DNA of 56,330 nt from Peristeroidobacter agariperforans (lineage in GTDB: Bacteria; Pseudomonadota; Gammaproteobacteria; Steroidobacterales; Steroidobacteraceae). The DNA is taken from contig NZ_RYFW01000010.1 in the NCBI RefSeq assembly GCF_004138335.1, forward strand, positions 1-56,330, in the 5' to 3' direction. Below, one piece after another: positions 2,291 to 33,043 of this stretch (positions are counted from its first letter, which is position 1; each line of letters starts with the position of its first letter). Made by a program: the position numbers and the translations under genes. The notes below the pieces were generated by a model, which was not told the origin of the DNA, did no database searches, and saw only the letters and a program-made list of their open reading frames with translations.

Positions 2291-2315
2291 CAGAATGCCG
2301 CCGACTTTCTCATAC

Positions 2316-9084: not shown

Positions 9085-9231
9085 TCGACGATCCTGGAGC
9101 ATCACCGGAATGGCGCGACCCAACTAGAGCTTCGCTGAAGTGCATGAGCGGTCCATCTTCTAGCTGGAAACCCGGCGGCTATGCCTGACGATGGTTCGCT
9201 ACGATGTCCGGCGACGACAAGACAGGCTAGC

Positions 9232-11083: not shown

Positions 11084-11926
11084 CTAGAGCGGATCTTGTT
11101 CCCGCCCCGCTTCTTCCTGTTTTGGGCTGATTCGTGCTGGCACGGCTCGATGCAACGGGTGCAAGTAAGTACTGAGGGTATGCCCGCCATCGACCAGTAG
11201 ATCGAGCCCGGTCACCAAGTCCGACGCCGCCGAGGCCAGGAAAAGAACCGCTCCATACATAGCACTATATGGAATGAGGCTCCCCATAGGAGTGACCTCG
11301 CGCATGCGCGCGCGCCATTCCGGATCAACGGGATTGCCATGGGTGAGCATCCAACCCGGGCTAATACAATTGACATTTATATTGTAGGAACCCCATTCGA
11401 CAGCAAGTGTCCTCGTGAGATGAATTACCGCCGCTTTCGACGCGTTGTAGGCGCAGTTACCAGCGGCGATGCGGCCGTACATCGATGCGATGTTAATGAT
11501 CTTACCGCCGCAGGGTTCCTGGCCCATCATCTGTTTGGCTTGGGCTTGAGCGCACCAGAACACTCCCGCCAGGTTGATGTCGATCATCTGATCCCAGTGT
11601 ACTGAATCCATTTCCAGCGCGCTCTGCGCGATACCTCCTCCGGCGTTGTTCACTGCGATGTCCAGGCGCCCAAAGCGGCGAGCGACTTCGGCCTGCATCT
11701 CGTGTATCTGGCGAGGGTCCGCAACGTCGCATTTGATGAAGAAAGAATCCACGCCCATTTGCCTCAGAGATTCGCAGGTGCGCTCCCCTCGCTCGGCATT
11801 TCGGCCGGCCAGCGCGACGTCGACACCTGAGCTGGCTAACGCGACGGCGCAAGCACGACCGACCCCGATCGCACCACCTGTGACCAAGGCCTTCCTCCCG
11901 CTAACATCAAAAAGGTCTCGATACAT
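11084..11926 (-). CDS. Classical short-chain dehydrogenase/reductase
   Basis: 280 residues from the ATG at 11926 (MYRDLFDVSGRKALVTGG). An upstream frame adds 65 residues that do not look like SDR sequence. The cofactor motif is TGGAIGVGRA, and NNAGGG is present. The catalytic Ser lies in INIASMYG and the catalytic Tyr/Lys in AYNASK. ISPGWM and LLVDGGH complete the fold. NAD(P) preference is not certain. A C-terminal extension after VDGGH is longer than usual. It is in the same direction as the E1 and NRPS genes, about 360 bases downstream of the E1 beta gene. It may reduce or oxidise an intermediate of that pathway. Confidence 0.8.
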   Translation of the reverse strand: MYRDLFDVSGRKALVTGGAIGVGRACAVALASSGVDVALAGRNAERGERTCESLRQMGVDSFFIKCDVADPRQIHEMQAEVARRFGRLDIAVNNAGGGIAQSALEMDSVHWDQMIDINLAGVFWCAQAQAKQMMGQEPCGGKIINIASMYGRIAAGNCAYNASKAAVIHLTRTLAVEWGSYNINVNCISPGWMLTHGNPVDPEWRARMREVTPMGSLIPYSAMYGAVLFLASAASDLVTGLDLLVDGGHTLSTYLHPLHRAVPARISPKQEEAGREQDPL

Positions 11927-12283
11927 AGATTGCCTCGAGTTGATCTGCCCCAGTTGCCGACGCGTGGACGATGCTGAGTCGTGTGGAACGGTAGAGCTGG
12001 TGATGGCCACTACATACTGTAGCAGGCGCTTCTCATCAATCGGCGGTTGAACGAGACGTCCTGATGGGGACATACAGCGCGTTGCGAGCCGCAGCAGGCC
12101 AAGCGACCGAGGCGGCACCACGCCGCAACGTGCGGTAGGTGACAGTCACCGGAAGGTTTTATTCCGAGCGATGCGAGTGACGCGATTACTGCTCCCACGA
12201 CTTGAACCCGCAGATACGTAAGCAGCGCCGTCGTGGCTCCGGCGCAATCACGCCCGACGCAAGACTGCTCAGATTCATTTGCT
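11927..12283 (-). other. Gap between E1 beta and SDR; no gene recognised
   Basis: The 357 bases contain open frames but none with family features, and no lipoyl or E2 domain could be found. A perfect inverted repeat, GGTGAC-A-GTCACC, lies at 12138-12150 and could be a protein-binding site. A GGTTCAAGTC string near 12208 mimics a tRNA T-loop but lacks a pairing stem. Confidence 0.4.
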
Positions 12284-13315
12284 TCAACGAAGCGCGGCGG
12301 GAAGGGGGGCTGGGGCGCACGCAGCCGTGGGGTTTCGACGTGAGTAGTTGCAAGTCGCTCGCACGGCTGCAGCAATACCCTCCGCAGTGGGATACATAAC
12401 TCCTTCGAGTTGCGGACTAAAGGGCACTGGCACATCCGGCGCCGTCAGTCGTTGTACGGGCGCTCTCAGGTATGCGAACGCCTCCTCTGAGACCAGAGCG
12501 GCGATCTCCGATGCCACGCTGCACATCCCAGGAGCGGGATCGACCACCACCAGACGACCGGTCTTCCGGACGGACTGGACAATGGCGCCCCGGTCCAGTG
12601 GCACAAGCGTGCGTGGATCGATGACCTCGACGGAGATACTTTCATGCTCAAGCACCCTGGCCGCTTGCAGGCTGCGATCAACGCAGCCCGCGATCGCAAC
12701 GACAGTAACATCCGATCCTACGCGCTTAGTATCGGCCGCACCGAACGGAACCTGGTACTCGTGGTCCGGCACTTCGCCGCTCACCTCTCCCAGCGCTGCA
12801 TCTTCGAAACAGAGCACTGGGTTGTTGTCGTCGATGGCGGTTTTGAGTAAACCCTTGATGTCATACGGCGTCGTGGGCACAATTATCTTCAACCCCGGAA
12901 TCTGCGCAAATATCCCCCAAGGCCGGTCCGAGTGATGTGCGGCGAGTCCCGCACCATAGGCCACGGACGATCGCACAACGATCGGCACGCTCGCCTGCCC
13001 GCCGAACATGTAACGGCTCTTCGCCGCCTGGTTCACGATCTGATCCATCGCTGAGTAGAGAAATGTGGAGAAAGCGGCCTCTATGACGGGACGCATGCCG
13101 GTCAGGGCGGCGCCGATGCCGGCACCGATGAAACCGGCTTCGCTGATGGGCGTGTCCCGGATTCTCTCCGGACCGAACTCCTGCAGCACATCGGAATAGT
13201 AGAACCCCTGCACATCCTCGCCCATCACGAAAACGTGAGGATCTCTGCGCATGGCAGCGACGATCGCGCTCTTCGCCGCTTCCAGGTAAGTTATCTGAGG
13301 CATTCTCGAAGTCAC
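12284..13315 (-). CDS. 2-oxoacid (pyruvate/acetoin) dehydrogenase E1 beta subunit, copy 1
   Basis: 343 residues. It is the pyrimidine-binding plus transketolase C-terminal half of a ThDP-dependent E1. Landmarks are VMGEDVQGFYY near residue 30, DTPISEAGFIGAGIGAA, HHSDRPWGIFAQIPGLK, and EVIDPRTLVPLD followed by GRLVVVDPAPGMCS. With E1 alpha it forms an alpha2beta2 enzyme that decarboxylates a 2-oxoacid, or cleaves an acyloin, to a hydroxyalkyl-ThDP carbanion. The C-terminal tail after RATCNY is about 20 residues longer than typical and rich in Ala/Pro. The gap to the E1 alpha gene is 12 bases. No E2 or E3 gene is adjacent. Confidence 0.85.
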   Translation of the reverse strand: MTSRMPQITYLEAAKSAIVAAMRRDPHVFVMGEDVQGFYYSDVLQEFGPERIRDTPISEAGFIGAGIGAALTGMRPVIEAAFSTFLYSAMDQIVNQAAKSRYMFGGQASVPIVVRSSVAYGAGLAAHHSDRPWGIFAQIPGLKIIVPTTPYDIKGLLKTAIDDNNPVLCFEDAALGEVSGEVPDHEYQVPFGAADTKRVGSDVTVVAIAGCVDRSLQAARVLEHESISVEVIDPRTLVPLDRGAIVQSVRKTGRLVVVDPAPGMCSVASEIAALVSEEAFAYLRAPVQRLTAPDVPVPFSPQLEGVMYPTAEGIAAAVRATCNYSRRNPTAACAPAPLPAALR

Positions 13316-13327
13316 TCCTTTGCGCTG

Positions 13328-14326
13328 CTAGCAATACAAATATTCCATGAGCGCATCCGGCTCCGGCACCGCACTGCTGTCGGCGAAGACTACGGCGCCC
13401 TCAACCTCCGCCTCAACGGCCGCCCTCATTTGTTCGACTTCCGCTCGCGATAACAGCGCCCGGCCTATCAAATCATTCACAAACAGCTCGATGGGGTCCC
13501 GCTTTCGCCATGCTGCGACTTCAGCTTCGCTCCGATAGCGTGGCGCCTGAAATTCCTCGCCGAACTCCTGGTGTTCGCAGTATCGATAAGTCTTGGCCTC
13601 TATCAACGTGGGCCCCTCACCGCTACGTGCGCGAGCGACGGCTGCGGCGACACAGTCATACACGGCGAGTACATCTTGCCCATCGGCAACGACCCCTGGA
13701 ATATTGTATGCACAAGCTCGCTTTGCGATGTCGATGACAGAGGTGGTCCTGGTTTGCGGCGTGAACAGCGCGTATCCGTTGTTCTCACAGAGAAAGATTA
13801 CCGGCAATCCCCAGATGGCGGCGAGGTTCAACGATTCATGGAATGGTCCGCAGTTCGCTGCCCCGTCGCCGAAGAAACAAAGGCAGACCTGATCCGTGCC
13901 TCGCAGCCGCGAGCTCAATCCGGCACCCACGGCAACCGGCATCAGCGAGCCCACGATGCCTGACTCCCCGAGACTTCCTGCGGAGAACGCGGCCAAATGC
14001 ATCGATCCGCCTCGTCCGTGACATAGGCCGGTTTGTTTACCAAAGAGCTCGGCCATCAGCGGCGCCAGCGCCACACCCTTTCCTATAGGGTGGCCGTGCG
14101 AGCGATGATTCCCGGTCATGTAGTCGTCATCGCGCACTGCCATGCAGGCACCAACAATCTCAGCTTCCTGACCCACAGAATTGTGCATGGCCCCGACCAG
14201 CCGCGATCGCAGCGAAGCAGCACGCTCCTCGAACAGGCGGATACGCAGCATCCGCCGCAGCATCTCTCGATGCTGATCCACGTTGAGATCTCGCGACGCC
14301 CGCTTTGAATCTGTGATCCTTGTCAT
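13328..14326 (-). CDS. 2-oxoacid (pyruvate/acetoin) dehydrogenase E1 alpha subunit, copy 1
   Basis: 332 residues. It carries the diphosphate-binding half of E1: GDGAANCGPFHESLN (GDG plus the downstream Asn of the ThDP motif), LCENNGYALFTPQ and HRSHGHPIGKG. GLCHGRGGSMH is typical of the acetoin/pyruvate E1 alpha group. It starts within the stop codon of the NRPS gene (ATGA), so its translation is coupled to the NRPS. This makes a role in tailoring or releasing the peptide, or in supplying a building block, more likely than central metabolism. Confidence 0.87.
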   Translation of the reverse strand: MTRITDSKRASRDLNVDQHREMLRRMLRIRLFEERAASLRSRLVGAMHNSVGQEAEIVGACMAVRDDDYMTGNHRSHGHPIGKGVALAPLMAELFGKQTGLCHGRGGSMHLAAFSAGSLGESGIVGSLMPVAVGAGLSSRLRGTDQVCLCFFGDGAANCGPFHESLNLAAIWGLPVIFLCENNGYALFTPQTRTTSVIDIAKRACAYNIPGVVADGQDVLAVYDCVAAAVARARSGEGPTLIEAKTYRYCEHQEFGEEFQAPRYRSEAEVAAWRKRDPIELFVNDLIGRALLSRAEVEQMRAAVEAEVEGAVVFADSSAVPEPDALMEYLYC

Positions 14327-17300
14327 CGCGCAATTCTCACCGGCTTGTTGGTGGCCTGTTGAAAATCCGTATCCCTGCGCCTCATGCTGTCGATGCAGGC
14401 GGCGATCATTTGACCATCCAGTACCGGCGCAACGATGCCAGCGGGCTCCAGCAAACGATAGGTCTCATCGCAGTCGAAAACGATCTTCTCGTCTCGCGTG
14501 TCGTACTGATGACGATCGAAAGCTTCCCGGCTCATGGAAAACGCAAACTCGATCAGCGGTACCGCAGGAAGGGACCAGCCGCTCTGGTGCAGCTTCTTCA
14601 TTTCTCCGATCCACTCGAAGTAAGGCTTCAGCTCCAACGAAGTGCCGAGCTGCGAATTGCAGCGCTCGAAGAGACCTTCGTAATGTCCGTGAGGAGAGGA
14701 GACGTGGAAGATACCGCCACCGTTCCGGTACTTGTTCGCCAGGTACACGATGGCACTTGCCACATAGTCGACCGGCGTCGGCGCAGCGCCGCTCAGGTAG
14801 CCTTGGATGCCGTATCCCGAAAGTAGACTGCTCTTGATGACACGATAGACGTTCTGTAGTTCATCGTAGCGCCCGCCCTGCGCATCTGCCCAGACCAACC
14901 CGATCCGGAAAACGTTGCACGGAATACCGCGGTCCTGCGCTTTCAAGAGGATTTTTTCTCCCACCCACTTGCTGGCGGCATAGCCACAAGACACGGGATG
15001 GCGTTCCCCATCGATGGAGCTGCGCTCGTTGATCACCCGAGCGGCTTCGCTCGTCAGCGGACTGAAGACGCTAAAGGTCGACACATAGTTGACGAGCTTG
15101 GTTCTTTCCGTCACTGCCAGCTTTAGCAACTCACTGACTCCGCCGACGTTCGCCGCCTTTGCCATCGCATAGGACTCCAGATGGTTCATGCTGGTGGCGC
15201 AGTGATAGATGCTGTCGATCGAACGCGCGAGCCGCGAGTACCACTCATCGTCCAGTCCCAGCCTCGGCAGTCGCAGATCTCCGAGAACGGCGGTGATGCG
15301 CTGTTCATATTCGTCGCGCCACAGGTCCCATATCTGGAGCGTCTTCTTGATTCGAGCCATACCCAGATACTCGGACGTTGCCCGCACCAGGCAGTAGACG
15401 CCGGCTCGCTCCTCTTGCAGCAGCCGCGCGAGCAGGAATCGCCCAACGAATCCCGTGGCGCCTGTCAGCAGGACTTTTTGCCTCCGCCCACCCCCCTCGA
15501 CCGCTCCCGCGCCCCGCACGCTCCGCACGAGTATCGCCTCACTTTCCAGATCTACCAACTCTTCGTCTGGAACCGAGCCGCCACGGATCCGTGCTGCGAG
15601 CTCTCGGATGGTCGGATACATGTAGATGTCGACAACACGTAGCGCGCAGCCGAGCATCTCGTTCGTTCGGGACAGCGCCTTGATCGCGAGCATCGAATGA
15701 CCGCCCGTTTCGAAAAAGTTGTCCTGGCGTCCGACTTGCTGCAGTCCCAGTAGCTCCTGCCAGATCTGCGCTAACCGCTGTTCGATCTCGCCCTGCGGCG
15801 GCTCGTATGGGCGAGCGCCCTCGCCCGCAAAATCCGGAGCAGGCAAGGCCCGCGTGTCGAGCTTGCCATTCAAGGTCATCGGCAATCGTTCCAAGCAGAC
15901 GAATGCACCGGGGAGCATGTAGTCGGGCAGTCCGGCGCGCAAATGAGTTCGCAACTCATCACTGCGCAACTGCATATTGCTTTCCGGCACAACGTAGGCG
16001 ATCAGTCGCTTCTCACCGCGCGAATCTTCTTGAGCTATCACGACGGCTTCCTTCACCTGAGGATGGCGAGCGATCTGAGCTTCGATCTCCCCAAGCTCGA
16101 TCCGAAACCCACGAATCTTCACCTGATGGTCGTTCCGGCCCAGATACTCAATCTGTCCATCCTCGCGCCATCGAGCCAAGTCCCCGGTCTTGTATAGTCT
16201 CGCTATGTTCCCCGGGTAAACGGCGTGAGTCACGAATCGCTCCTGCGTCAGCTCTGGCCGATTGAGGTATCCGCGCGCCACGCCTGCGCCTCCGACGTAT
16301 ATCTCGCCGGTGACACCCAGAGGCGTCGGATTTCTGCAACGATCGAGCAGGTACAGCTGAAGATCCGGGATCTGCCGGCCAATGATGCTGCTCCTCTCCG
16401 AAAAGATTTGCCCCTCGGTCAGCGGCTGATAGGTCACGTGCACCGTTGTCTCTGTAATGCCATACATATTGACCAGCTTTGGCCGATCGGCGCCGTTGCG
16501 CTCAACCCAGCGTCGCAACGTTCGTAGCTCGAGGGCCTCGCCGCCAAAGACGACCACCCGCAGCGAGTGCTTCATCTCAACGTTCGACTCCTGCGCATCA
16601 ATTAGCTGCGTGAAGGCACTCGGTGTTTGATTGAGTACCGTGACACCTTCCCTGCACAGCAGGGAATAGAATTCATGCGGCGATCGCGCGATCAGGTACG
16701 GAACGACAACCACCCGACCACCATACAACAAGGCACCCCACAGCTCCCACACCGAGAAATCGAAAGCAAATGAGTGAAAGAGTGTCCACACATCACGATC
16801 GTTGAACGAGAACCATTGTTCGGTCGATGTGAAAAGCCGCGCCACATTGCCGTGCTCCACCATCACACCCTTGGGCCTCCCGGTGGATCCGGATGTATAG
16901 ATCACGTAAGCGAGCGCATGAGAGTCCGCTTCGCTAGTGGCCAGCGGTACGTTTTCCACCGGCCAACCGTCGAGTTGCTCGTATCCCTCGCTCATGATCA
17001 GCGTTTGGATCCCTGAAGGGCTCATCCGGTCCTGCAGGTGCTCTTCGACAAGGAGCACCGTCGGAGCCGCATCGCTGAGCACGAAGTCCAAGCGCTCCCG
17101 CGGATAATGTGGATCGAGGGGTACATAGCCACCCCCCGCTTTCAGGATCCCGAGAATGCCGACGATCATCATCAGATGACGATCCACGCAAATTGCCACT
17201 CGATGGTCACGGCCGACGCCCTTGCTTCTCAGCAGCCAAGCGAGCTGGTTGGCCTTCTCGTTGAGCTCCGCGTAGCTTAGCGATCTGTTCTCGCAAGTCG

Positions 17301-18879
17301 CAGCTATGGCAGTGGGCGACCGGAAAACCTGGGCTTCGAACCTCTCATGGATCGGTCGGGGCTGCTCGCACGCGATCGCACTTCCGTTGAACGATTCGAT
17401 GAGCCGACGTTGGTCGTCGGTGAGCAGCGTCAGCTCGCCGATCTTCGCGTGCACGTCGCCAGTCACTGCCGGCAGTACCCAGCGCAGTGACTGCAGCCAG
17501 CGGTCAGCACAGCCGCTGGAGAACAGGTCTGTGGCGTAGTTGAGCGTCAGGACGATGTCCTCGCTGCTGTCGTCGACGGACAGCAGGAGATCGAACATCG
17601 CTCCCTGTTCCATACCCAGCTCGAGGGATACCGCCACTCCAGGCAAGGTCGGATGGCGCCGTAGTTCGGACTGTATGGTCAGCATGACCTGGAACACCGG
17701 GTTTTTACCCTTGAGCCGCTGCGGATGCAGCGCCTCGACCAACTTCTCGAAGGGCACATCCTGGTTGTCGAACGCGCCAAGCGTCGTCTCCCGCGCTTGC
17801 GCCAGCAGCTGATCAATAGTCATCTCGTCGTCGAGCTGCATGCGGAGCACGATCGTATTAGCGAAGAATCCGATCAGCCCCTCCAGCTCCGGGCGCTGGC
17901 GATTCGCCACTGGCGTTCCTACCAGGACGTCCTGCTGATCGGTCAACCTGTAAAGCAGCGCCGACCATGCCGCGTGGAATACCATGAACGGGGTCAAGCC
18001 GCGGCACCTTGCGAACTCCCGCAGGTGCGCGCTCAGCTCCAGGCCCAGGGAGGTCTCGACGTTGTCGCCTCGATAGCTTTGTGACACCGCCCGCTGCCGA
18101 TCGGCAGGCAAGTCCAGGTGCAAACAAGCCCCGCGTAACCTCTCTAGCCAATAATCCAGTTGTCCCTGAAGAGCACCGCTCTGCAGCCATCGCCTGTGCC
18201 ACTGGGCATAGTCTGCATATTGGATGTGCAGCGGTGACAGTGCCGGCTGTTGCCGCTGCCGATATGCGCGATACATCTCCTGCAATTCTTCGAAGAACAC
18301 ATTCATTGACCAACCGTCGAACACGATGTGATGCACGGTGATCAGCAGCAGGAACTCATCGGCATGGATGCGCAGCAGCCGGCCCCGGATGAGGGGGCCA
18401 GTGTCCAGATCGAACACCGCTTTCGATTCCAGCTGTTTATGCAGCTCGACCTGCTCCAGGCGACGCGACGCTTCCAGCGTCGTAAGATCGATGCTCTTAA
18501 AGGAGAAAGTCCCGTGCGTGGCGATGCGCTGTTTCAAGTCGCCATCGACGACGGCATACGTAGTGCGCAGCACTTCGTGGCGGCCCACTAGTCCGTCGAG
18601 CGCTTGTTGCAAAGCCTGCTCATCGAGGCTCCCTCGCAGTCTCATCGCAATGGGAATATGGTAGGCGGCGCCGCCGCCCTCCATCTGATCCACCAGCCAC
18701 ACACGCTGTTGCGCGTCCGAAGCGGGAAGTTGAACGAATGGACCGTCCGCGACACGAGCGACCTTTAGGATCTCCTGGCTCGCGCTCTCCTCGCCGCGAC
18801 GACTCCTGTCTCGCAACAGAAGCTGCAGCAGCCTTACCTTGTCGTTGGACAATCCTTCGATACGGTCGTTGTTTCGCAT
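14323..18879 (-). CDS. Nonribosomal peptide synthetase, C-A(Thr)-PCP-reductase
   Basis: 1518 residues. The condensation domain is at about 51-480 with an intact HHIVFDG (H183-G189). The adenylation domain spans about 505-1010: YTSGSTGRPKG, NMYGITETT, YKTGDLARW, GFRIELGEIE and NGKLD. The carrier domain has GGHS with the phosphopantetheine Ser at 1062. The terminal NAD(P)H thioester reductase is at about 1135-1490, with LLTGATGFVG, VSTFSVFS and the catalytic YAASK. Reading the ten pocket positions by hand gives D-F-W-N-V-G-M-V-H-K, one conservative change from the known threonine code. There is no thioesterase, so release is reductive (aldehyde or alcohol). AAGGGA just before the ATG serves as ribosome binding site. 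By domain logic it is the last module of the line. Confidence 0.92.
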   Translation of the reverse strand: MRNNDRIEGLSNDKVRLLQLLLRDRSRRGEESASQEILKVARVADGPFVQLPASDAQQRVWLVDQMEGGGAAYHIPIAMRLRGSLDEQALQQALDGLVGRHEVLRTTYAVVDGDLKQRIATHGTFSFKSIDLTTLEASRRLEQVELHKQLESKAVFDLDTGPLIRGRLLRIHADEFLLLITVHHIVFDGWSMNVFFEELQEMYRAYRQRQQPALSPLHIQYADYAQWHRRWLQSGALQGQLDYWLERLRGACLHLDLPADRQRAVSQSYRGDNVETSLGLELSAHLREFARCRGLTPFMVFHAAWSALLYRLTDQQDVLVGTPVANRQRPELEGLIGFFANTIVLRMQLDDEMTIDQLLAQARETTLGAFDNQDVPFEKLVEALHPQRLKGKNPVFQVMLTIQSELRRHPTLPGVAVSLELGMEQGAMFDLLLSVDDSSEDIVLTLNYATDLFSSGCADRWLQSLRWVLPAVTGDVHAKIGELTLLTDDQRRLIESFNGSAIACEQPRPIHERFEAQVFRSPTAIAATCENRSLSYAELNEKANQLAWLLRSKGVGRDHRVAICVDRHLMMIVGILGILKAGGGYVPLDPHYPRERLDFVLSDAAPTVLLVEEHLQDRMSPSGIQTLIMSEGYEQLDGWPVENVPLATSEADSHALAYVIYTSGSTGRPKGVMVEHGNVARLFTSTEQWFSFNDRDVWTLFHSFAFDFSVWELWGALLYGGRVVVVPYLIARSPHEFYSLLCREGVTVLNQTPSAFTQLIDAQESNVEMKHSLRVVVFGGEALELRTLRRWVERNGADRPKLVNMYGITETTVHVTYQPLTEGQIFSERSSIIGRQIPDLQLYLLDRCRNPTPLGVTGEIYVGGAGVARGYLNRPELTQERFVTHAVYPGNIARLYKTGDLARWREDGQIEYLGRNDHQVKIRGFRIELGEIEAQIARHPQVKEAVVIAQEDSRGEKRLIAYVVPESNMQLRSDELRTHLRAGLPDYMLPGAFVCLERLPMTLNGKLDTRALPAPDFAGEGARPYEPPQGEIEQRLAQIWQELLGLQQVGRQDNFFETGGHSMLAIKALSRTNEMLGCALRVVDIYMYPTIRELAARIRGGSVPDEELVDLESEAILVRSVRGAGAVEGGGRRQKVLLTGATGFVGRFLLARLLQEERAGVYCLVRATSEYLGMARIKKTLQIWDLWRDEYEQRITAVLGDLRLPRLGLDDEWYSRLARSIDSIYHCATSMNHLESYAMAKAANVGGVSELLKLAVTERTKLVNYVSTFSVFSPLTSEAARVINERSSIDGERHPVSCGYAASKWVGEKILLKAQDRGIPCNVFRIGLVWADAQGGRYDELQNVYRVIKSSLLSGYGIQGYLSGAAPTPVDYVASAIVYLANKYRNGGGIFHVSSPHGHYEGLFERCNSQLGTSLELKPYFEWIGEMKKLHQSGWSLPAVPLIEFAFSMSREAFDRHQYDTRDEKIVFDCDETYRLLEPAGIVAPVLDGQMIAACIDSMRRRDTDFQQATNKPVRIAR

Positions 18880-19443
18880 TTCCCTTGGCTTCCATCGTCA
18901 AGTAAAAACAGGTCCCCAGGGGTCCTTCGATAGCACCATTAAAGCCGGGAGACTGTAACGGAAACTCCGCCCCCCGGGGCTTTGACGTCGCTGCCACCTG
19001 CTACACAGCTGACCCGGAGCTGCGCAGTCAGCCCGAAGCTGCGCGGGGCTAGATCTCCGTGTTTCGGATGATCCCATTCCACGAACGGATCGCAAGGGAG
19101 ATGCAAGATTGAAATGTGCTCGCCGCGAGAGAAGCTTCCGTATGCACGCCACGACGGCTTGGCGCCCCCCCCACCCGATTTCGGTCAGTCACGCAAAACG
19201 TGAAATCTGGTTGATCAGCAACCCCTGATCCCCCGACACACCTCAGACTGAACATTACCGACTGCGCGAAACCGGCGCGTCCGCTCCAATACTCCAATTT
19301 TCCACCACGAGCTGAAGCTCACGTTATCGCTAAACTCTTTTTCTTCACAATGACTTAACGAGACGACACGACAGGCAACACCAAGGTGGCAAACGCGTCG
19401 ACGTAAATGCCAGTTCGGTTTGCTCACAACGTAGGGAAAGTGC
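18880..19443. promoter_or_regulatory. Divergent NRPS intergenic region
   Basis: The 564 bases separate the two NRPS start codons and must hold both promoters. No gene is seen. Visible elements are GGTTGATCAGCAACC (19209-19223, GGTTG and CAACC arms, a possible operator) and a repeated AGCTGCGC around 19019-19050. AGGGAAA lies just before the ATG at 19444 as the ribosome binding site. No confident -35/-10 pair was assigned. Confidence 0.5.
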
Positions 19444-22400
19444 ATGAAAGATCTCGCGTCATCCCAGTTGCTTCTGTCGCCCGGCCTGCTCCAGAAATTG
19501 CAGGACTTCGCGCACCAGCAGGACGCCAGTGTTGTCGAGGCTCTGATTACCGGTTGGGCGCTACTGCTGCGTCTCTGGCTGGAAAAGGATGAGGTGTCAC
19601 TCGATATTGCGATTCATTCATCGGCAGATGTCCGCGAAGCTGGCGCATTCCTGCCTGACACGACACCTATGCATGTAGTCATACCTCGGGACACATCTGT
19701 GCGAAACGCTCTGAGCGCGGTACATGCCGTGATCGAGCAGTTGCGTGCGATGGGATCGGACGATCTGCCAGCGCAAATCGTTCTGTCTTCGATGATTCCT
19801 CAAGCGCTGTTCTGGCACGAGCCTGCGCAGGCGAGCAATCACGCCTCGACGGACGCAATTCCCGTGCGGATGATGACCGTTCGCGTCGCTTGCGATCAGC
19901 AGGCATCGACGACACTGGAATATTCCAGGGCTGCTCTCAGCAAAGCAGCAGTCGAACGCCTCACAACCAGTGCGGCGGCGCTGCTGCAGCAAATGGCTGA
20001 CGGCCATGATCTGACCCACCCGGACATCAGCGGGCACACGACCGCTGTACGTGAGCTCATCTCTCATCGATACGTCGACAACCCGGCTCCTTACCGCCAC
20101 GACCACCTGATCCATCGATTGTTCGAAGAGCAGGCACGAAGGACGCCTGACGCTGTTGCAGTCGTACTCGATGAGCAATCGCTGACGTACGCAGAGATCG
20201 ATGCCCGCGCGGACTCGCTCGCGGGACATCTCGTGCATGCCGGCGTTCGTGTCGATCAGCCTGTCGCGGTTTTCATGGGACGTAGCCCGGAGATGATCGT
20301 CGCGCTGCTTGGTATCCTCAAGGCCGGTGGCGCCTATCTGCCTCTGGATCCCGGTTACCCGGCCGAGCGCCTGAAATACATGCTGGAGGACGCCGCTCCA
20401 ACGCTCGTGCTAACCCAGCACACGCTGCGAGCACTCTTGCCGCAGGTTGACATCCCGGTGCTGGCTCTAGATGACTACCTCGATGGCGACCGCTTCGATA
20501 CATCACTTCCGGACCGGCCCCAGAGTAGCGACAGTCTTGTGTATGTGATCTACACATCGGGTTCGACCGGTCGTCCGAAAGGAACCGCAATGCCCCACCG
20601 TGCCATGATCAATTTGATTGAATGGCACCAGCGAGTCTTCGAAACTCTCCCGGGCAGTCGCGTTGCTCAATTTGCCGCGTTGAGCTTCGACGTGGCCTTT
20701 CAGGAGATCTTCTCGACCTTGTGCGCCGGCGGTTGCCTGGTCCTGATGAACGAGTGGATCCGGCGGGACGCGCGCGCTCTGATGCGCTACCTCGATAGCC
20801 AGTCGATCCAGAGGCTGTTCCTTCCTCCTCTCGTCCTACATGGCTTGGCGCAATATCACACCGCTACCGGCGAGATCGCGACATCGCTTCGGGACATCAT
20901 CACAGCCGGCGAGCAATTGCGGATCACTCCGGATATCCGCCGCCTGTTCGAGCATCTGCCAGATTGCCGCCTCCACAATCACTATGGCCCCACCGAATCG
21001 CACGTCGTGACCGCGTGGACTGCGAACGGTGATCCGCAGAGCTGGCCAACGCTTCCCCCCATCGGCCAGCCGATCTCGAACACAAGAATCTATGTGCTCG
21101 ATGACCATCGACAGCGTGTCCCCACGGGATCGACCGGGGAGATCTACATCGGCGGGACGACCGTAGCGCGTGGCTACCTTGGCAAACCCGAGCTCACGCA
21201 ACAACGCTTCGTTCCCGATCCCTTCTCATCGAATCCTGCGGACCGCCTCTACAAGACTGGCGATCTCGCCCGCTGGCGAGATGGAGTGCTGGAGTATCTG
21301 GGCCGCAACGATGACCAGGTGAAGATCCGCGGTTTTCGCATCGAGCTAGGTGAGATAGAGACCCACCTCTGTACACACGAACTGGTAGGTGAGGCAGCGG
21401 TAGTTGCGCGCACCGAAGATCGTGGAGAAAAGCGGCTGGTTGCATACGTAACTCCTCGCAATCGCACACTCGTGAGCATCGAATCGCTTCGGTCACATCT
21501 GCAGACGCGATTGCCGGATCACATGATGCCGCACGTCTTTGTCGTCCTTGATCGCATGCCAGTGACCCCGAGCGGTAAGCTCGATCGACGATCGTTGCCG
21601 GCACCGACCTCGGAGGCAGTGGTAACACGACCCTATGATCCGCCGGCTTCCGACGCCGAGATCGCTCTAGCCGCCGTTTGGAGCGAAGTGCTTCGCGTCG
21701 AACACATCGGCAGGCAAGATCATTTCTTCGAACTCGGCGGAGATTCGCTACTGATGGTGCAGATGCTGGAAAGATTGCGATCGCGTGCTCTCTCGATCGA
21801 TGCGCAATGCGTCTATGAACGTCCGACGCTCGCGACCATGGCTGAGGTCATGCACCAGGATACGGCCGCCAATCAGCCGCCCTCCAAAGTAATTCCCGCC
21901 GAGTGCACTGAGATTACGCCACAGATGCTCACCTCGATTGAGATCGACCCGGAGCAGATTGCGCGGATCGTCAGCTCGGTGCCAGGAGGTACCAGCAACA
22001 TTCAGGATCTCTATCCACTTGCGCCGCTGCAAGAAGGTATTCTCTTTCATCATCTGTTCGGCGGGAACGCTGCCGACACCTATGTAGTCAGCGTGCTCTT
22101 GTCACTGGAATCGTCGGAGCGAGCCAGCGCGTTCACGATCGCCCTGCAGCGGGTTGTCGATCGACACAGCGCCCTGCGCACCGCCATTCTCTGGAACGAT
22201 CTGCCGCAGCCAGTGCAGGTCGTCTATCGACGAGCGATAGTGCCGGTCTCGACGATCGCGCTGTCTTCCGATCGCGACGGACTCGAGCAACTCGTCGAGA
22301 TGATGAGATCGGACCGACAGCCGAAGCTAAATGTGTCGCGCGCACCACTCTTGACCCTGGAGCTGGCGGATGACACGCGCAGCAGCCGATGCTATGCCAT

Positions 22401-25257
22401 ATTGCGCATTCATCATCTTGCCTGCGATCACGAATCGCTGGACACGATGTTCGATGAGATCTCTACCTTCATGGCCGGCCTCGAACACGAACTAGAGATA
22501 CCCGCCGAGTACAAAACCCACATCGCGCACTCGTTGAGCGCCAACAAAGACGGCGCCGCGGAAGAGTTCTTCCGTGACAAACTCTCTGGGATCGAGGAAC
22601 CCACGACTCCATTCGGTCTCACCGATGTTCACGCTGACGCTCTGCGTATTGCCGAAGCTAGCAGCGACCTGGACGCATCTCTCGCGGGACGCATAAGAAT
22701 GGAGGCACGAAAGCTGGGCGTTACCGCAGCGACTCTTTTTCACGCTGCATGGTCGATCGTCGTCTCACGCACGAGCGGTCGCGAGGATGTGGTTTTCGGC
22801 ACTCTGTTGCTCGGGCGTATGTACGGACCGGCCGGATCACGGCATACGCTCGGTATGTTCATGAATACATTGCCGATAAGGCTGCGCTTACGAGGACTGA
22901 CTGCCGAAACCCTGATCAAAGAAACGCATGCCGAACTTGCGCAGTTGCTGAGCCATGAGCAAACGTCACTAGCGCTGGCGCAACGTTGTAGCAACGTCGA
23001 CGCCTCCTGCCCCCTTTTTGGCGCCTTGCTCAACTATCGACACACTGCCAAACCCAAAAATGCGTTAAGTGCAGGCTTTCGAATAGTTAGCCTCCAGGAA
23101 TGGACAAACTATCCGGTCACGCTCTCCGTCGACGATGACGGCACAGGCTTTTCTCTCGTGGCACAGATTGACAGATCGATCGATCCGCAGCAGATCATTC
23201 GGTACACGGTTACGGCAATGCAGTCATTACTGGATGCACTGCAGGAGTCACCGCTCATACCTGCGTTAAGTCTGCCGATAATACCTGACTCGGAACGTCG
23301 GCAAGTGGTCGAGACATTCAATGCAACGATGGCAGCGTATCCAGACCGAAAGCCGATTCATGAGCTGTTCGAGGAGCAGGTGGAGCGCACCCCGGACGCG
23401 GTGGCAGTAGTTTGCGAAAAGCAATCGTTGACGTACGCAGAGCTCAACAGGCAAGCAAATGGGCTGGCCCATCTCCTCAGAAAGATTACACAGGTCGGTG
23501 ACCACATTGTGGTGCTGATGCACCGTTCATTGGAAATGCTTATCGCTCAGTTGGCGGTTCTCAAGTGTGGCGGCGTGTACGTTCCTATGGATCCGGATCT
23601 GGCCCCGCAGCGGCAGAAGTTCATGCTGACCGATTGCAATCCGCAGCTCGTGTTGACGGATCGACGGAAGGCCGCAGAGATGCGCATCGAGCCGTATCAA
23701 TGGCTGGATTGGAACGCAATCCATGCAGAAGTGGAAAAACAGCCGACTGACAACCTGTCGCTGCCCTTGAACCCGACTCCAGCGGCATATGTGATGTATA
23801 CCTCCGGGTCGACGGGCGTACCGAAGGGCGTAGTCGTTCCGCATCATGCAGTGAGTCGACTTGCCATCAATAACGGTTATGCGCAGGTCGAAGCTGGCGA
23901 CTGCATACCTCATTACAGCAACCCGACATTCGATGCATCCACATTCGAGATCTGGTGTGCCCTGTTGAACGGCGCGCGGGTATTGATTGTGCCGCAGGCG
24001 GTCGTGTTGGAACCAGCGAAGTTCGGCCGCCTGTTGCGACAACAGCAGGCGACGCTGCTGTGGATGTCCGTCGGGCTGTTCAATCAATGCGAACGGATGC
24101 TGGTGGATGTATTCACGCAACTGAGGTACCTGATCGTAGGCGGTGACCGACTGGATCCGACCGTGATCAGGCGTGTACTGATGCGTTCCCCCCCGCAGCA
24201 CTTCCTGAACGCATACGGCCCGACCGAATGCACGACGTTCTCGACTACTTACCTAATCGATGCGGTCGAAGAAGATGCCAAGAGCATTCCGATTGGCCGT
24301 CCGATATCGAACACGCAGATCTACATCCTGGACAATCAGCGTCAGCCGGTCCCCCTTGGAACAGTCGGCGAGATCTATATCGGCGGAGCAGGCGTCGCTC
24401 AGGGGTATTTGAACCAGGCGGAGCTCACGACGGAGCGCTTCGTGAGAGATCCATTCAGTACCGATACGAATGCCCGAATGTACAAGAGCGGCGACCTGGG
24501 ACGCTGGCGGGGGGATGGGAATATCGATTTCATCGGTCGCAACGATCAACAGATAAAGATTCGCGGCTTCCGGATTGAACCCGCCGAGATCGAGCTCCAA
24601 CTATTGAAACATGCGCAAGTTAGGGAGGCCGTGGTTATTGCCCGGGAGCATGTGCCTGGAGAGAAGCGCCTTTTCGCGTATTTCATTGCTGAGAATTGCA
24701 AGGCAGCGCCGAGTGCCGCAGCCCTGCGCACACACTTGAAGGCAGCACTACCGGAGTACATGATTCCCGGCGCCTTCGTCGCTCTCGAGCAGTGGCCTCT
24801 GACGCCGAATGGCAAGCTGGATCGTCGAAAGCTGCCGGAGCCGCCTGCCTCGGCTCATGCACTTACAGAGTACCAGCCTCCCAACGGCGAAATGGAAATA
24901 CTCCTGGCAGGACTGTGGCAGGAGATATTCAAGAGCGAACGCGTGGGGAGGATGGACAACTTCTTCGACCTCGGCGGTAACTCCCTTTTGGCTATGAAGT
25001 TGATGGTACGTTTGCGTTCGCTGTTGATGATGGATGTGCCGGTAAGGACTCTGTTTCAGTTTGCCAACGTCGCTGAGTTGTCAGCAGAACTGGAACGCAT
25101 GCGTCGCGCGTCAGTGACCACAGCCCTTGCGCACGCAGGCAGCGCAGCGGACGCGTTACTGCACGACGTTTCCACGATGTCGGAGAGCGATGTGCGGCGG
25201 CGCCTCGACGAGCTGCAGGCGATGGAGCTGCAAGGCGATCAGCTGTCGCTTCAGTAG
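19444..25257 (+). CDS. Nonribosomal peptide synthetase, half-C-A(Pro)-PCP-C-A(Val)-PCP
   Basis: 1937 residues. Residues 1-205 align with only the C-terminal half of a condensation domain (LSPGLLQKLQDFA onward) and lack any HHxxxDG. A1 spans about 225-720 with YTSGSTGRPKG and NHYGPTES. Its hand-read pocket D-V-Q-F-I-A-H-V-V-K matches proline codes. PCP1 has GGDS with Ser768. A full condensation domain (about 855-1275) starts YPLAPLQEGILFHH and has HHLACDH (H990, H991, D995), with His in place of the usual Gly. A2 (about 1300-1790) has pocket D-A-F-W-I-G-A-T-F-K, closest to valine. PCP2 has GGNS with Ser1847. There is no epimerase, thioesterase or reductase, so the chain must pass to the second NRPS. 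Confidence 0.92.
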   Translation: MKDLASSQLLLSPGLLQKLQDFAHQQDASVVEALITGWALLLRLWLEKDEVSLDIAIHSSADVREAGAFLPDTTPMHVVIPRDTSVRNALSAVHAVIEQLRAMGSDDLPAQIVLSSMIPQALFWHEPAQASNHASTDAIPVRMMTVRVACDQQASTTLEYSRAALSKAAVERLTTSAAALLQQMADGHDLTHPDISGHTTAVRELISHRYVDNPAPYRHDHLIHRLFEEQARRTPDAVAVVLDEQSLTYAEIDARADSLAGHLVHAGVRVDQPVAVFMGRSPEMIVALLGILKAGGAYLPLDPGYPAERLKYMLEDAAPTLVLTQHTLRALLPQVDIPVLALDDYLDGDRFDTSLPDRPQSSDSLVYVIYTSGSTGRPKGTAMPHRAMINLIEWHQRVFETLPGSRVAQFAALSFDVAFQEIFSTLCAGGCLVLMNEWIRRDARALMRYLDSQSIQRLFLPPLVLHGLAQYHTATGEIATSLRDIITAGEQLRITPDIRRLFEHLPDCRLHNHYGPTESHVVTAWTANGDPQSWPTLPPIGQPISNTRIYVLDDHRQRVPTGSTGEIYIGGTTVARGYLGKPELTQQRFVPDPFSSNPADRLYKTGDLARWRDGVLEYLGRNDDQVKIRGFRIELGEIETHLCTHELVGEAAVVARTEDRGEKRLVAYVTPRNRTLVSIESLRSHLQTRLPDHMMPHVFVVLDRMPVTPSGKLDRRSLPAPTSEAVVTRPYDPPASDAEIALAAVWSEVLRVEHIGRQDHFFELGGDSLLMVQMLERLRSRALSIDAQCVYERPTLATMAEVMHQDTAANQPPSKVIPAECTEITPQMLTSIEIDPEQIARIVSSVPGGTSNIQDLYPLAPLQEGILFHHLFGGNAADTYVVSVLLSLESSERASAFTIALQRVVDRHSALRTAILWNDLPQPVQVVYRRAIVPVSTIALSSDRDGLEQLVEMMRSDRQPKLNVSRAPLLTLELADDTRSSRCYAILRIHHLACDHESLDTMFDEISTFMAGLEHELEIPAEYKTHIAHSLSANKDGAAEEFFRDKLSGIEEPTTPFGLTDVHADALRIAEASSDLDASLAGRIRMEARKLGVTAATLFHAAWSIVVSRTSGREDVVFGTLLLGRMYGPAGSRHTLGMFMNTLPIRLRLRGLTAETLIKETHAELAQLLSHEQTSLALAQRCSNVDASCPLFGALLNYRHTAKPKNALSAGFRIVSLQEWTNYPVTLSVDDDGTGFSLVAQIDRSIDPQQIIRYTVTAMQSLLDALQESPLIPALSLPIIPDSERRQVVETFNATMAAYPDRKPIHELFEEQVERTPDAVAVVCEKQSLTYAELNRQANGLAHLLRKITQVGDHIVVLMHRSLEMLIAQLAVLKCGGVYVPMDPDLAPQRQKFMLTDCNPQLVLTDRRKAAEMRIEPYQWLDWNAIHAEVEKQPTDNLSLPLNPTPAAYVMYTSGSTGVPKGVVVPHHAVSRLAINNGYAQVEAGDCIPHYSNPTFDASTFEIWCALLNGARVLIVPQAVVLEPAKFGRLLRQQQATLLWMSVGLFNQCERMLVDVFTQLRYLIVGGDRLDPTVIRRVLMRSPPQHFLNAYGPTECTTFSTTYLIDAVEEDAKSIPIGRPISNTQIYILDNQRQPVPLGTVGEIYIGGAGVAQGYLNQAELTTERFVRDPFSTDTNARMYKSGDLGRWRGDGNIDFIGRNDQQIKIRGFRIEPAEIELQLLKHAQVREAVVIAREHVPGEKRLFAYFIAENCKAAPSAAALRTHLKAALPEYMIPGAFVALEQWPLTPNGKLDRRKLPEPPASAHALTEYQPPNGEMEILLAGLWQEIFKSERVGRMDNFFDLGGNSLLAMKLMVRLRSLLMMDVPVRTLFQFANVAELSAELERMRRASVTTALAHAGSAADALLHDVSTMSESDVRRRLDELQAMELQGDQLSLQ

Positions 25258-25288
25258 CGGCTACTCATCGAATCAGCGGAGAATCGGC

Positions 25289-26839
25289 ATGCTAGCTCAA
25301 GACATTGAACGCGTTGCTGTTGTCGATTCCACTCGAACGCGTCATCTGTGGACGTTGCTGCTGATTTGCGTGGCCGCCGGGCTGTCGCTCGGGCCTTTGC
25401 AGTTCCAGACGATCAGTCCACAGGACGAAGGGATACTGTTGCTCTATCCCGACCTGATCCTGCAGGGGTATGTTCCGTATCGCGACTTCTCTGCGATCTA
25501 TCCACCCGGAACGTTCCTCCTGTTGGCGGGAGCATTCCAACTGCTCGGTGAGAGCATCGTGATAGAGAGGTTGGTTGGAGTTGCGTACCAAGTCATGATG
25601 GCAGCGGCCGTCTATCTGCTCGGGGCACGTCTGACGTGGACAACTGGGCTCGTGGCGTCCAGCGTCATGCTGCTCGTACTACACTTTTTTCCAGCCGCTG
25701 GCGCTTACTCGATGTTCGCCGCGCTGGCATCAATATTATTCGGAATGCTGTACGCACATTCAGCCGCAGCAATGCACGATGATGGCCGCGCAGGGACCTG
25801 GAGGATTGCTGCTGGAGTACTTGCATCCCTCGCGTTTTGGTTTCGCCAGGAGATCGGTGTCGTCGGTACGGTTGCGATCTTGGTTGCGCTGCATCCACAA
25901 ACTAGACGCCAGTTCCGTGATTTCTGTTTCGGATTCGCACTGCCTGCCGGCGTATTGGCTGTCCTACTAGTTCTGATCGGCCTTGAACCAAGCTTCGATA
26001 GCCTGGTTCTCGATGTTCTGCATATGTTACCCGGGAGAAAGTTTCCCGTCGAATGGAGTCCGGCGCTGTTCGCTGTTTTACTCTGCGTAGTCATTAGCGT
26101 GACGATCGCCTTCGTGGGGCAGCGCTGGAGAAGAAAAGACCACCTCCAACTAGCGCGCGCCGTGGCAGTGCTTTCCGCGGGACTGTTGCCATCTGTACTG
26201 CAACAAGTTGGCGCGTGGCATCTCTCCTACGTGGGCTGCGTGATCGGCGCCTTGACGGTTGTTTCGCTGCGACTCGCCACGACCCATCGCCTTTCTCGTG
26301 CGACCGGCCAAGCAGGTACAGCAATGCTACTGGCGTCGATCGCTGGCGCTTTCATCGTCGCATTCATGCACGGCGCTTATCGATATAGTGTAAACACACC
26401 CCGACTGGCAGTCGAAGACAGGTGGGTATTCATAGAAGACAATCTTTATCCCGGGGATCCAGGCCGTCATTCGGACGCCGCGGCTCTGCTCAATGAAACA
26501 ATCAAAGTCGCCAAGCCGGGCGAGCGCCTGTTCGTCGGGCCCGAAGACCTGCGGTACGCTGTCTATAGCGACACGTTCTTCTACTATCTCCTGCAGCAGT
26601 TGCAACCCGCCTCTCGCTATCTCGAAATGAATCCCGGCGATGCCAATGGCGAGGATTCAGGCCTGGCGGCCGATGTAGCCTCTGCGGATTGGCTGATCCT
26701 GACATCCCGATATGACAATCTCTATACACCAGCCGCCGCACGCATTCCGGGGTCACAGGCGCCTAACGATGTGGTCCGCCGCTTGTTCTGTGAGCACTCG
26801 AAGCATGGTGTATGGCGGTTGATGCGCCGCTGCACATAG
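25289..26839 (+). CDS. Polytopic membrane protein, GT-C (PMT/ArnT)-like
   Basis: 516 residues from the ATG at 25289, 31 bases after the NRPS stop and preceded by a GGAGA-like site. The first external loop has QDEGILLLYPDLILQGYV, then PYRDFSAIYPPGTFLL. The acidic pair plus YxPG is the pattern of GT-C glycosyltransferases using polyprenyl-phosphate sugars. About ten to twelve helices and a soluble C-terminal domain follow. It is in line with the NRPS gene and probably co-transcribed, so glycosylation of the product or of an envelope lipid is possible. The exact family is not recognised. It ends 8 bases from the convergent MFS gene. Confidence 0.65.
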   Translation: MLAQDIERVAVVDSTRTRHLWTLLLICVAAGLSLGPLQFQTISPQDEGILLLYPDLILQGYVPYRDFSAIYPPGTFLLLAGAFQLLGESIVIERLVGVAYQVMMAAAVYLLGARLTWTTGLVASSVMLLVLHFFPAAGAYSMFAALASILFGMLYAHSAAAMHDDGRAGTWRIAAGVLASLAFWFRQEIGVVGTVAILVALHPQTRRQFRDFCFGFALPAGVLAVLLVLIGLEPSFDSLVLDVLHMLPGRKFPVEWSPALFAVLLCVVISVTIAFVGQRWRRKDHLQLARAVAVLSAGLLPSVLQQVGAWHLSYVGCVIGALTVVSLRLATTHRLSRATGQAGTAMLLASIAGAFIVAFMHGAYRYSVNTPRLAVEDRWVFIEDNLYPGDPGRHSDAAALLNETIKVAKPGERLFVGPEDLRYAVYSDTFFYYLLQQLQPASRYLEMNPGDANGEDSGLAADVASADWLILTSRYDNLYTPAAARIPGSQAPNDVVRRLFCEHSKHGVWRLMRRCT

Positions 26840-26847
26840 CCGGCGCC

Positions 26848-28128
26848 TTATATGTCGAGCTTGCTATGTTCTAGCACACGCTCCACTTCGGGATTCGCGA
26901 AGGAATTTCGGCTAAGGCCGAAGACGATCGCACCAAGCACGCCGGTGATGCCGCACACTAGCGCCAGCGCCTCTCCAATCGCCGTCGCCCCCCCAAGCTC
27001 GCCGGAAAGGCTGCTGACCACCAGCGGAGCCACACCATCGCTGAACAACGTTGCCGCTGTGAGGCTCACAGCGACGAACAAACCACGCAGCTCTCCCGGC
27101 ATGACAACAGTGCCCAGCGCCATCGCCGCAGTAAGTACGGTGAAATCCAAGGTGAGCAGCGAACCAAGCAGAATGCAGGCCAGAAGAACATTCGGCGCGA
27201 CGGCGAAGAACGACATGAACACGCTGAGAAATGTCAGACCTGTCAGGGCGATCATTGTCTGACGTGGCCCACCCTTGCGCTGACAGATATCGGCGAGCAA
27301 ACCGCCAAGGATGGGCCCCAGAAGGCTGCTGACTAGCAGCACGGCTGCCATGATCGCTCCAATGCGATCGGGCGACAGGTGGAGACGGCGCGCAAAGCTG
27401 GGAGCGGTCCAGACCAGGACCGCGCCGACGGCCACCCATACCATAATTCGCGCCAGAAGCAATGGAAGCACCACCCTTCTATATCGCCACAGATCCGACC
27501 AGATTTCGGCCCAAGCCAATCTCCTTTCGATAACGCCGATCCTGCGCGGCTCGCGCAGGAGCAGCAACAGGAAGACTGCGGGCAGCAATGGCACACACAT
27601 TCCACCTAACGCAGATCGCCAACTTCCGACATCCGGCCCGGCCGCTACCAGTAGAAGTCCACCCAGCGCGAAGACAGCGGGAGGGCTCGTGACCTCCCCC
27701 ATTCCGACCACGCTCGTGGCACGGCCGCGCTGAGCCGGAGCGTACAGATCGCCGACCATGGAGTAAGAGGCGACCAGAACCGCGGCCATGGATAGGCCGG
27801 ACAGACAGCGGGCGGCAAAAAGTTCGATAAGGTTGTCTGCGGATGCGGTCCACACCGCCGAGACCAGATTAACGACCGTAAATATATACAGCAGTCGAGT
27901 GCGCGAGTAGCGATCAACAAGAATCCCTATGGGAATGGCTGCGATCGCCATCGGCACCGCAACCGCCGGCCCCTGTAGCCACGCAATTTGATTGTCGCTG
28001 AGCCCCAGATCGACGCGGACAGCTTCCTGTAACGGCCCAAGAATAAATCGAGCGTAGGTCACCGACCAAGTTGCGAGCCCCAGCAGAAACAAATACCACA
28101 GGCGCGATAAGCGAGTCGTTTCACTCAT
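26848..28128 (-). CDS. MFS transporter, Spinster/MhpT-like
   Basis: 426 residues from the ATG at 28128 (MSETTRLSRLW). A longer frame adds 17 unlikely residues. Twelve hydrophobic helices are seen. The signature loop between helices 2 and 3 is GILVDRYSRTRLL, and a second related loop, GLLADICQRKGG, opens the C-terminal half, as expected for MFS proteins. The N-terminal WLQGPAVAVPMAIAAIP resembles the Spinster-like subgroup often seen in sphingomonad and Steroidobacter catabolic operons. The substrate is unknown; export of a peptide product or import of a small organic compound both fit. It is last in the minus-strand operon that starts with the TonB receptor. Confidence 0.82.
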   Translation of the reverse strand: MSETTRLSRLWYLFLLGLATWSVTYARFILGPLQEAVRVDLGLSDNQIAWLQGPAVAVPMAIAAIPIGILVDRYSRTRLLYIFTVVNLVSAVWTASADNLIELFAARCLSGLSMAAVLVASYSMVGDLYAPAQRGRATSVVGMGEVTSPPAVFALGGLLLVAAGPDVGSWRSALGGMCVPLLPAVFLLLLLREPRRIGVIERRLAWAEIWSDLWRYRRVVLPLLLARIMVWVAVGAVLVWTAPSFARRLHLSPDRIGAIMAAVLLVSSLLGPILGGLLADICQRKGGPRQTMIALTGLTFLSVFMSFFAVAPNVLLACILLGSLLTLDFTVLTAAMALGTVVMPGELRGLFVAVSLTAATLFSDGVAPLVVSSLSGELGGATAIGEALALVCGITGVLGAIVFGLSRNSFANPEVERVLEHSKLDI

Positions 28129-28187
28129 AAACTCCGTTCTTTGCTCTGTAACCGTTGAACACAGCCCCACTGCGCACAACAGTCGAT

Positions 28188-29000: not shown

Positions 29001-29013
29001 GCTTGCTCCAACA

Positions 29014-29211
29014 CTAGTAGGAAAGACCTTCGACAATCAGACTCTGCGTATCTATGGAAGCTGACGGATTGCAGATCCGTCGGCACTCATCCTTCGTTTG
29101 CTTCGCGTCGGCCGCCGGATACAACGCTTTCACTTCAGCGGCGACGGCACGACCCGTCTTGCCATCAGCGGTCGGACACAAAGTGCGGAACAGCTCGCTT
29201 TGCTGTGTCAT
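29014..29211 (-). CDS. Unrecognised 65-aa ORF between lipoyl and SDR genes
   Basis: 65 residues, starting MTQQSELFRTLCPTADG. It has charged helical stretches, three cysteines (one near residue 12 and a DECRRIC pair near 43-47) and a C-terminus NPSASIDTQ then SLIVEGLSY. No domain is recognised. It fills most of the only gap in a tightly packed operon and points the same way, which argues for a gene. The absence of a strong ribosome binding site argues against. It could also be the remnant of a larger protein. Confidence 0.35.
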   Translation of the reverse strand: MTQQSELFRTLCPTADGKTGRAVAAEVKALYPAADAKQTKDECRRICNPSASIDTQSLIVEGLSY

Positions 29212-29263
29212 GGCCGTGGCAACGGTAGTGAGCAGATAAGAGAGCGGAACAACAGTCTACGAA

Positions 29264-29509: not shown

Positions 29510-29526
29510 GATTCCTTCCCTTCGCG

Positions 29527-30528: not shown

Positions 30529-30550
30529 GTTCCAGGACTCCCGAGGTTCG

Positions 30551-31531: not shown

Positions 31532-31559
31532 CAATGCTCCTGCATGACCTGAATGCCGC

Positions 31560-33041: not shown

Positions 33042-33043
33042 GT

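Follow-up and report, generated by a model that had tools for sequence, protein, structure and literature searches.

Peptide aldehydes are usually regarded as the final compounds of their pathways, which go on to cyclise or act as protease inhibitors. Nonribosomal peptide synthetases (NRPSs) with a C-A-PCP-R ending, where R is a thioester reductase, are known from the myxalamid protein MxaA and from MxcG and AusA. In naphthyridinomycin-type systems, an acyl unit made by an E1-type thiamine diphosphate (ThDP) enzyme is passed to a carrier. The E1 of E. coli pyruvate dehydrogenase (PDH) is of the single-chain type. This E1 alone forms acyloins from pyruvate and linear, branched, and alpha-hydroxy aldehydes (PMC7696235). 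In paulomycin biosynthesis, Plm8/Plm9, which resemble PDH E1 alpha and beta, have been given the role of attaching a two-carbon chain derived from pyruvate to a sugar, and the same paper cites kosinostatin and avilamycin as similar (PMC4802897). For obafluorin, the ThDP enzyme ObaH had been proposed to carry out an acyloin step, but tests showed no such reaction and ObaH only decarboxylates; the same paper also describes a PDH-like complex for ripostatin by which phenylacetyl stays bound to a carrier protein (PMC5490192).

The locus described here, from the soil bacterium Peristeroidobacter agariperforans, encodes an NRPS protein (NRPS2) that is like MxaA, MxcG, and AusA in its C-A-PCP-R ending. 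Unlike those systems, it has an E1 alpha/beta pair (pair 1) encoded directly after R. Coordinates refer to the window, the whole stretch of 56,330 nucleotides that was analysed. The aldehyde from the NRPS line is probably not the final product, because it would be made right beside ThDP-dependent enzymes that may be able to add carbon. Our main reading, to which we assign a probability of about 0.42, is that the peptide aldehyde is an intermediate that pair 1 would condense with a carbanion derived from a 2-oxo acid, giving a peptidyl acyloin, by analogy with Plm8/Plm9 and the E. coli E1.

NRPS1 is encoded by a 1937-aa open reading frame (ORF) on the plus strand (19444-25257) with the order C remnant-A-PCP-C-A-PCP, and its Pfam content is two AMP-binding, two PP-binding, and one Condensation stretch. 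The domains comprise A-Pro (20122-21597), the first PCP (approximately 21646-21843), a C domain of a D-donor/dual-like class (21979-23313), A-Val (23368-24834), and the second PCP (24904-25089). At its start (approximately 19444-20088), a local C HMM detects a very weak remnant of the C-terminal half of a C domain (14 bits, E = 2.3e-6 in a search of three sequences). No Pfam stretch is found there, and the HHxxxDG motif is absent. NRPS2 is a 1518-aa ORF on the minus strand (14323-18879) and consists of a canonical HHxxxDG-type C domain (17401-18729), A-Thr (15844-17340), a PCP (15586-15780), and R (14364-15492), matching Condensation, AMP-binding, PP-binding, and NAD_binding_4 in Pfam. The first-pass annotation had described a two-protein line at these same positions, and its coordinates were exact. 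Its C-A-PCP-R order for NRPS2 is confirmed by Pfam and TIGR01746; for NRPS1, A-PCP-C-A-PCP holds, and the "half C" placed in front of it shrinks to the very weak remnant.

The adenylation pockets read DVQFIAHV-K and DAFWIGAT-K in NRPS1 and DFWNVGMVHK in NRPS2 in a multiple alignment; position 331 of both NRPS1 codes is an alignment gap, where V and F were taken by eye from the context. This agrees with the earlier reading of Pro, Val-like, and Thr-like codes. By the code-to-substrate table for adenylation domains, they would specify Pro, Val, and Thr. Profile searches of NRPS1 and NRPS2 at E 0.001 matched neither a thioesterase nor a second Condensation/E stretch, and NRPS1 yielded no E domain, as the first reading of the sequence had also concluded. 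The top NCBIfam match of NRPS1, SolG of solanimycin, was rejected because its 1436 bits fall short of the cut-off of 2200. The identities MxcG, AusA, and EntF were likewise rejected, since their scores lie below the respective cut-offs, far below in the case of MxcG and AusA. Immediately after NRPS1 lies a PMT_2-type membrane glycosyltransferase-like gene (25127-26839) that has no BLAST match at 1e-15 in the related loci L010-L047.

The C domains before Val and before Thr fall into two separate clades (SH-aLRT 100) in a quick tree of 11 C domains from this genome and its relatives. The domain before Thr carries the HHIVFDG motif, and its best solved matches are Txo1, Txo2, and TycC. The domain before Val carries the motifs YPLAPLQEGILFHH and HHLACDH, and its closest solved relatives are the C domains of McyB, TycB, PvdL, BacC, and SrfA-C, which we take to be of the type that accepts a D-residue donor (DCL). 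Because of this resemblance, and because NRPS1 has no E domain, the all-L peptide proposed at first is doubtful. Dual E/C domains have an additional N-terminal HH[IL]xxxxGD motif, to which HHLFGGNAAD in the domain before Val is a near-match only. As no E domain precedes it, this domain may plausibly act as a dual E/C domain, and the Pro may then be D.

The R domain scores 256 bits against TIGR01746 (cut-off 213) and contains the Rossmann motif TGATGFVG, the Thr in YVST, and YAASK, so the active site is intact, as had been noted. NRPS2 thus combines a terminal R, a Rossmann motif, and a T-Y-K site with the absence of a thioesterase, the features by which reductive release is recognised. The best solved-chain match of R is MxaA (4u7w), presumably a four-electron, alcohol-forming reductase, and for this reason the R sequence alone cannot tell aldehyde from alcohol. 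The first-pass annotation had predicted Pro-Val-threoninal or, instead, the corresponding alcohol or a cyclic imine as the product. Reductive release stands, and such a compound is doubtful as the end product given the adjoining E1 pairs, lipoyl protein, aldehyde dehydrogenase, and short-chain dehydrogenase/reductase (SDR) proteins described below, which that annotation, ending at the edge of NRPS2, had not taken in. An R of the NRPS2 kind is rare among the sampled Pseudomonadota (overlapping draws of 246 genomes of the order, 369 of the class, and 398 of the phylum). Seven R loci were found outside the genus, and none has an E1 match within approximately 4 kb, a span that reaches only about 1.5 kb past R.

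All genes of the E1 group beside NRPS2 lie on the minus strand. The start of the E1-alpha-like gene of pair 1 (13328-14326) overlaps the NRPS2 stop in the tetranucleotide ATGA, and the E1-beta-like gene (12284-13315) follows after 12 nt. An ORF for an SDR oxidoreductase (11084-12121, with a likely start near 11926 judging from the translation) comes after a gap beyond E1-beta. Against the PDH E1-alpha model TIGR03182, E1-alpha scores 321 bits, below the cut-off of 393.85; E1-beta passes the cut-off of the broader PDH E1-beta subfamily NF006667 (328 against 321). In alignments with solved E1 chains, all eight E1-alpha proteins of the four clusters known (this one and the three introduced below) have GDG, and all eight E1-beta proteins have PI[SC]E and HSD. 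We take these to be the ThDP motif, the activating Glu, and the catalytic His, respectively; with these roles assumed, the catalytic apparatus of a ThDP-dependent E1 is intact. A single E2 query matched no E2 acyltransferase domain in the window or in loci L010, L011, L012, L021, and L023, so the arrangement of a 2-oxo acid dehydrogenase complex, in which an E2 with a lipoyl domain stands beside E1, is not found. No lipoyl gene lies beside pair 1 in any of the four clusters (in one, the metagenome-assembled genome (MAG) ZC4RG39, 0.8 kb downstream is covered). Since a lipoyl gene occurs only beside pair 2 and no E2 was matched, pair 1 has no nearby partner to accept an acyl group.

Pair 2 is located approximately 15 kb from pair 1, with the NRPS genes lying between them, and its subunits are 56% (E1-alpha) and 54% (E1-beta) identical to those of pair 1. 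E1-alpha lies at 30551-31567, and E1-beta (29527-30669) probably starts near 30528 judging from the translation. A gene for a free-standing lipoyl-domain protein of 81 aa (29264-29509) adjoins pair 2, as a lipoyl gene does in all four clusters. An aldehyde dehydrogenase gene (31560-33041) overlaps the E1-alpha gene of pair 2, and it is flanked by a gene for a TonB-dependent receptor (33044-35200). On the opposite side lie a second SDR oxidoreductase (28188-29036) and an MFS transporter (26848-28179). All of these genes are on the minus strand. MFS genes also occur in the loci of Steroidobacter agaridevorans and S. gossypii, and TonB matches are found near pair 2 of both species. The feature probably extends beyond the NRPS genes to 11084-14326 and approximately 26848-35200. 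Near the TonB receptor lies an S9 prolyl-oligopeptidase-family gene (35896-37923), and the loci of S. agaridevorans and S. gossypii contain M24 peptidase genes; both kinds would fit a Pro-containing peptide. The region to the left of the cluster (755-10581) contains sulfotransferase-like, LPG-synthase-TM-like, family-2 glycosyltransferase, GMC-type oxidoreductase, epimerase, and amine-oxidase-like genes, which perhaps have a separate function.

With E1-alpha of pair 1 as the query against genome contigs, 140 relatives were found, and the best 80 loci were analysed. NRPS C, A, and R domains are present in three of 82 E1 loci (these best 80 of 140 and two plasmid loci), namely those of S. agaridevorans (L010), the MAG ZC4RG39 (L011), and S. 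gossypii (L012). Three further candidates (L057, L075, and L076) were rejected as NRPS loci because their AMP-binding matches are weak (24-25%). Within the genus, E1-alpha matches at E<=1e-90 occur in four of 14 genomes, including the present one, with two matches in each that correspond to pair 1 and pair 2, and all four genomes also encode an NRPS with R. The ATGA overlap of the NRPS stop and the E1-alpha start recurs in S. agaridevorans, and in S. gossypii the earliest possible E1-alpha start is 25 nt past the NRPS stop. ZC4RG39 has, on one strand, NRPS-R, more than 1 kb of sequence, E1-alpha and E1-beta of pair 2, an SDR gene, and E1-alpha and E1-beta of pair 1. In S. gossypii, the two pairs are on different contigs.

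The residue selected by the R module is Thr in the window, Gln-like in S. agaridevorans (DAQDLGMVDK), and Pro in both S. gossypii and ZC4RG39; therefore, the peptide varies among the four clusters while both E1 pairs are constant. NRPS1 of S. agaridevorans begins with a full C domain. A quick tree of 92 E1-alpha rows, from which, as from the E1-alpha counts, 29 loci (L091-L119) had been left out beforehand, separates the two sets, pair 1 forming a clade of four rows (SH-aLRT 99) and pair 2 a clade of six (SH-aLRT 100). The latter also takes in Ensifer sp. BR816 and a Mesorhizobium amorphae plasmid. Since the clades are separate, both pairs seem to have been retained through the changes in R-module residue. 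The two pairs differ at many positions, each of which is fixed within its own set. In Ensifer sp. BR816 (L026, 9989-14666), the E1 pair is similar in sequence to pair 2 (68% and 71% identity). Beside it are a lipoyl match, a separate E2 catalytic domain, and genes for an aldo-keto reductase and an SDR, with recombinase/transposase flanks.

In the 92-row tree, both pairs belong to a clade of 28 rows (SH-aLRT 98), in which the "GH" of the active-site loop is replaced by EH (18 rows), DH (7), or HH (3). Outside it, GH is kept in 57 of 64 rows and DH appears in one. Within 2.7 kb, 14 of the 28 have a lipoyl neighbour without E2, six have both, and eight have neither, four of these eight being pair 1. 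Just past this limit, a lipoyl match is found in L015, and E2 lies further downstream in L013, L027, and L031. L029 and L125, from the same clade as pair 1, have no lipoyl neighbour either. This subfamily is spread over Pseudomonadota, Actinomycetota, and Chloroflexota. At the family level, an E1-alpha match at E<=1e-60 is present in 52 of 100 genomes, and an E1 as such is therefore common.

In the pathway that we propose, the NRPS line would assemble Pro-Val-Thr, in which a dual E/C domain could possibly convert Pro to the D form. The R domain at the end of the line would then release the chain as a peptidyl threoninal. Pair 1 would decarboxylate a 2-oxo acid, for which pyruvate is the simplest candidate, and the resulting carbanion would join the aldehyde. 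The predicted product is a peptidyl alpha-hydroxyketone (acyloin), which with pyruvate as the donor would be C16H29N3O5 ([M+H]+ 344.218). An SDR may then reduce or oxidise the acyloin. Pair 2, together with the lipoyl protein, the aldehyde dehydrogenase, and the SDR, may carry out a second related step, which could be further processing or oxidative breakdown. Acyloin formation would be the simplest use of a carrier-less E1 beside an aldehyde-releasing NRPS.

Several features count against acyloin formation by pair 1. Its E1-beta passes a PDH cut-off, relatives of its E1-alpha are common and, among the loci examined, mostly NRPS-free in their surroundings, and MxaA, the nearest solved relative of R, presumably forms an alcohol. 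L029 and L125 share with pair 1 the lack of a lipoyl neighbour, and the pairs of S. gossypii are on separate contigs. The two-carbon precedents act on sugars, and the obafluorin result (PMC5490192) also weighs against the proposal. Judged by the description in PMC4802897, Plm8/Plm9 and pair 1 are alike in being two-subunit E1-like ThDP enzymes inside biosynthetic clusters; the acceptor is a sugar for the former and presumably an NRPS-released peptide aldehyde for the latter. E. coli PDH E1 resembles the proposed role more directly, as an E1 that by itself joins pyruvate and aldehydes (PMC7696235). It is, however, a central-metabolism enzyme used in vitro, whereas pair 1 is presumed to be a dedicated biosynthetic enzyme.

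The E1 pairs, the lipoyl protein, the aldehyde dehydrogenase, the SDRs, the TonB receptor, and the peptidases could instead serve uptake and breakdown of, or self-protection against, a peptide aldehyde or related compound, with pair 1 oxidising or cleaving it. The grouping of pair 2 with lipoyl, aldehyde dehydrogenase, and TonB receptor genes is consistent with such a function, as are the M24 peptidases of two related clusters and the prolyl-oligopeptidase-family gene of the window. The Sphingobium sp. RAC03 plasmid pBSY17_1 (L126), the only NRPS-free E1 locus annotated in full, is like the pair 2 locus in having consecutive genes for E1-alpha, E1-beta, and a small lipoyl protein, with SDR and TonB receptor genes close by. 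Unlike it, the plasmid locus has no NRPS domain and has an adjoining PQQ dehydrogenase and M24 peptidase, and this E1-lipoyl cassette looks catabolic. Pair 1, however, comes directly after the NRPS-R gene, has no lipoyl gene to accept an oxidised acyl group, and differs from pair 2 at the set-specific fixed positions. We consider a breakdown role unlikely, although it deserves some weight.

Less probable still is that the line ends at Pro-Val-threoninal, the alcohol, or the cyclic imine and that the E1 pairs serve another purpose. R does terminate the line, its nearest solved relative is MxaA, and NRPS-free relatives of the E1 are common, with NRPS domains in only the three of 82 loci (the best 80 of 140 and two plasmid loci). 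The overlap of pair 1 with the NRPS2 stop, and the presence of both pairs with NRPS-R in all four genus genomes that have close E1-alpha matches, argue to the contrary. Least probable is the transfer of an E1-made acyl unit to a lipoyl or assembly-line carrier and not to a free aldehyde. The free-standing lipoyl protein that accompanies pair 2 in all four clusters, the full C domain at the start of S. agaridevorans NRPS1, and the ripostatin precedent (PMC5490192) would suit it. Against it, no E2 catalytic domain was matched by the one E2 query in the window or the five loci searched, and what precedes the first A domain of NRPS1 in the window is a C remnant that lacks HHxxxDG.

If pair 1 does form acyloins, the four clusters may represent a family of NRPS pathways that has so far been seen in a single genus. 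A dedicated E1-like acyloin synthase would extend the released aldehyde, a paralogous E1-lipoyl pair would do a second step, and an interchangeable C-terminal residue (Thr, Gln, or Pro) would give a series of peptidyl alpha-hydroxyketones. We hold this wider picture tentatively, as a possibility somewhat short of even odds. The parts are of known kinds, and their combination is new as far as tested and found only in the genus. The literature searched, which was open-access with most subscription papers outside it, held nothing on point for NRPS-R combined with E1 or acyloin formation, and likewise nothing that contradicts the earlier remark that a cluster of exactly this form is not known to have been described. 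If the proposal is true, peptidyl alpha-hydroxyketones would be accessible by a modular route of reductive release followed by an E1-type carboligase, with the chain lengthened by ThDP chemistry once it has left the assembly line. It would also give a function to members of a multi-phylum E1 subfamily, many of which have no adjacent E2, and product prediction for R-terminated lines with neighbouring E1 genes would need to change.

The same genome also carries a second, larger NRPS system on contig C10 (approximately 1485567-1506467, from L129 5567 to L130 6467), which is rich in Pro codes. It starts with a better kept half C followed by a Gln-like A domain, contains four C domains of the YPLAPLQ (D-donor/dual-like) type, and ends with a separate 523-aa ORF of the C/E family.
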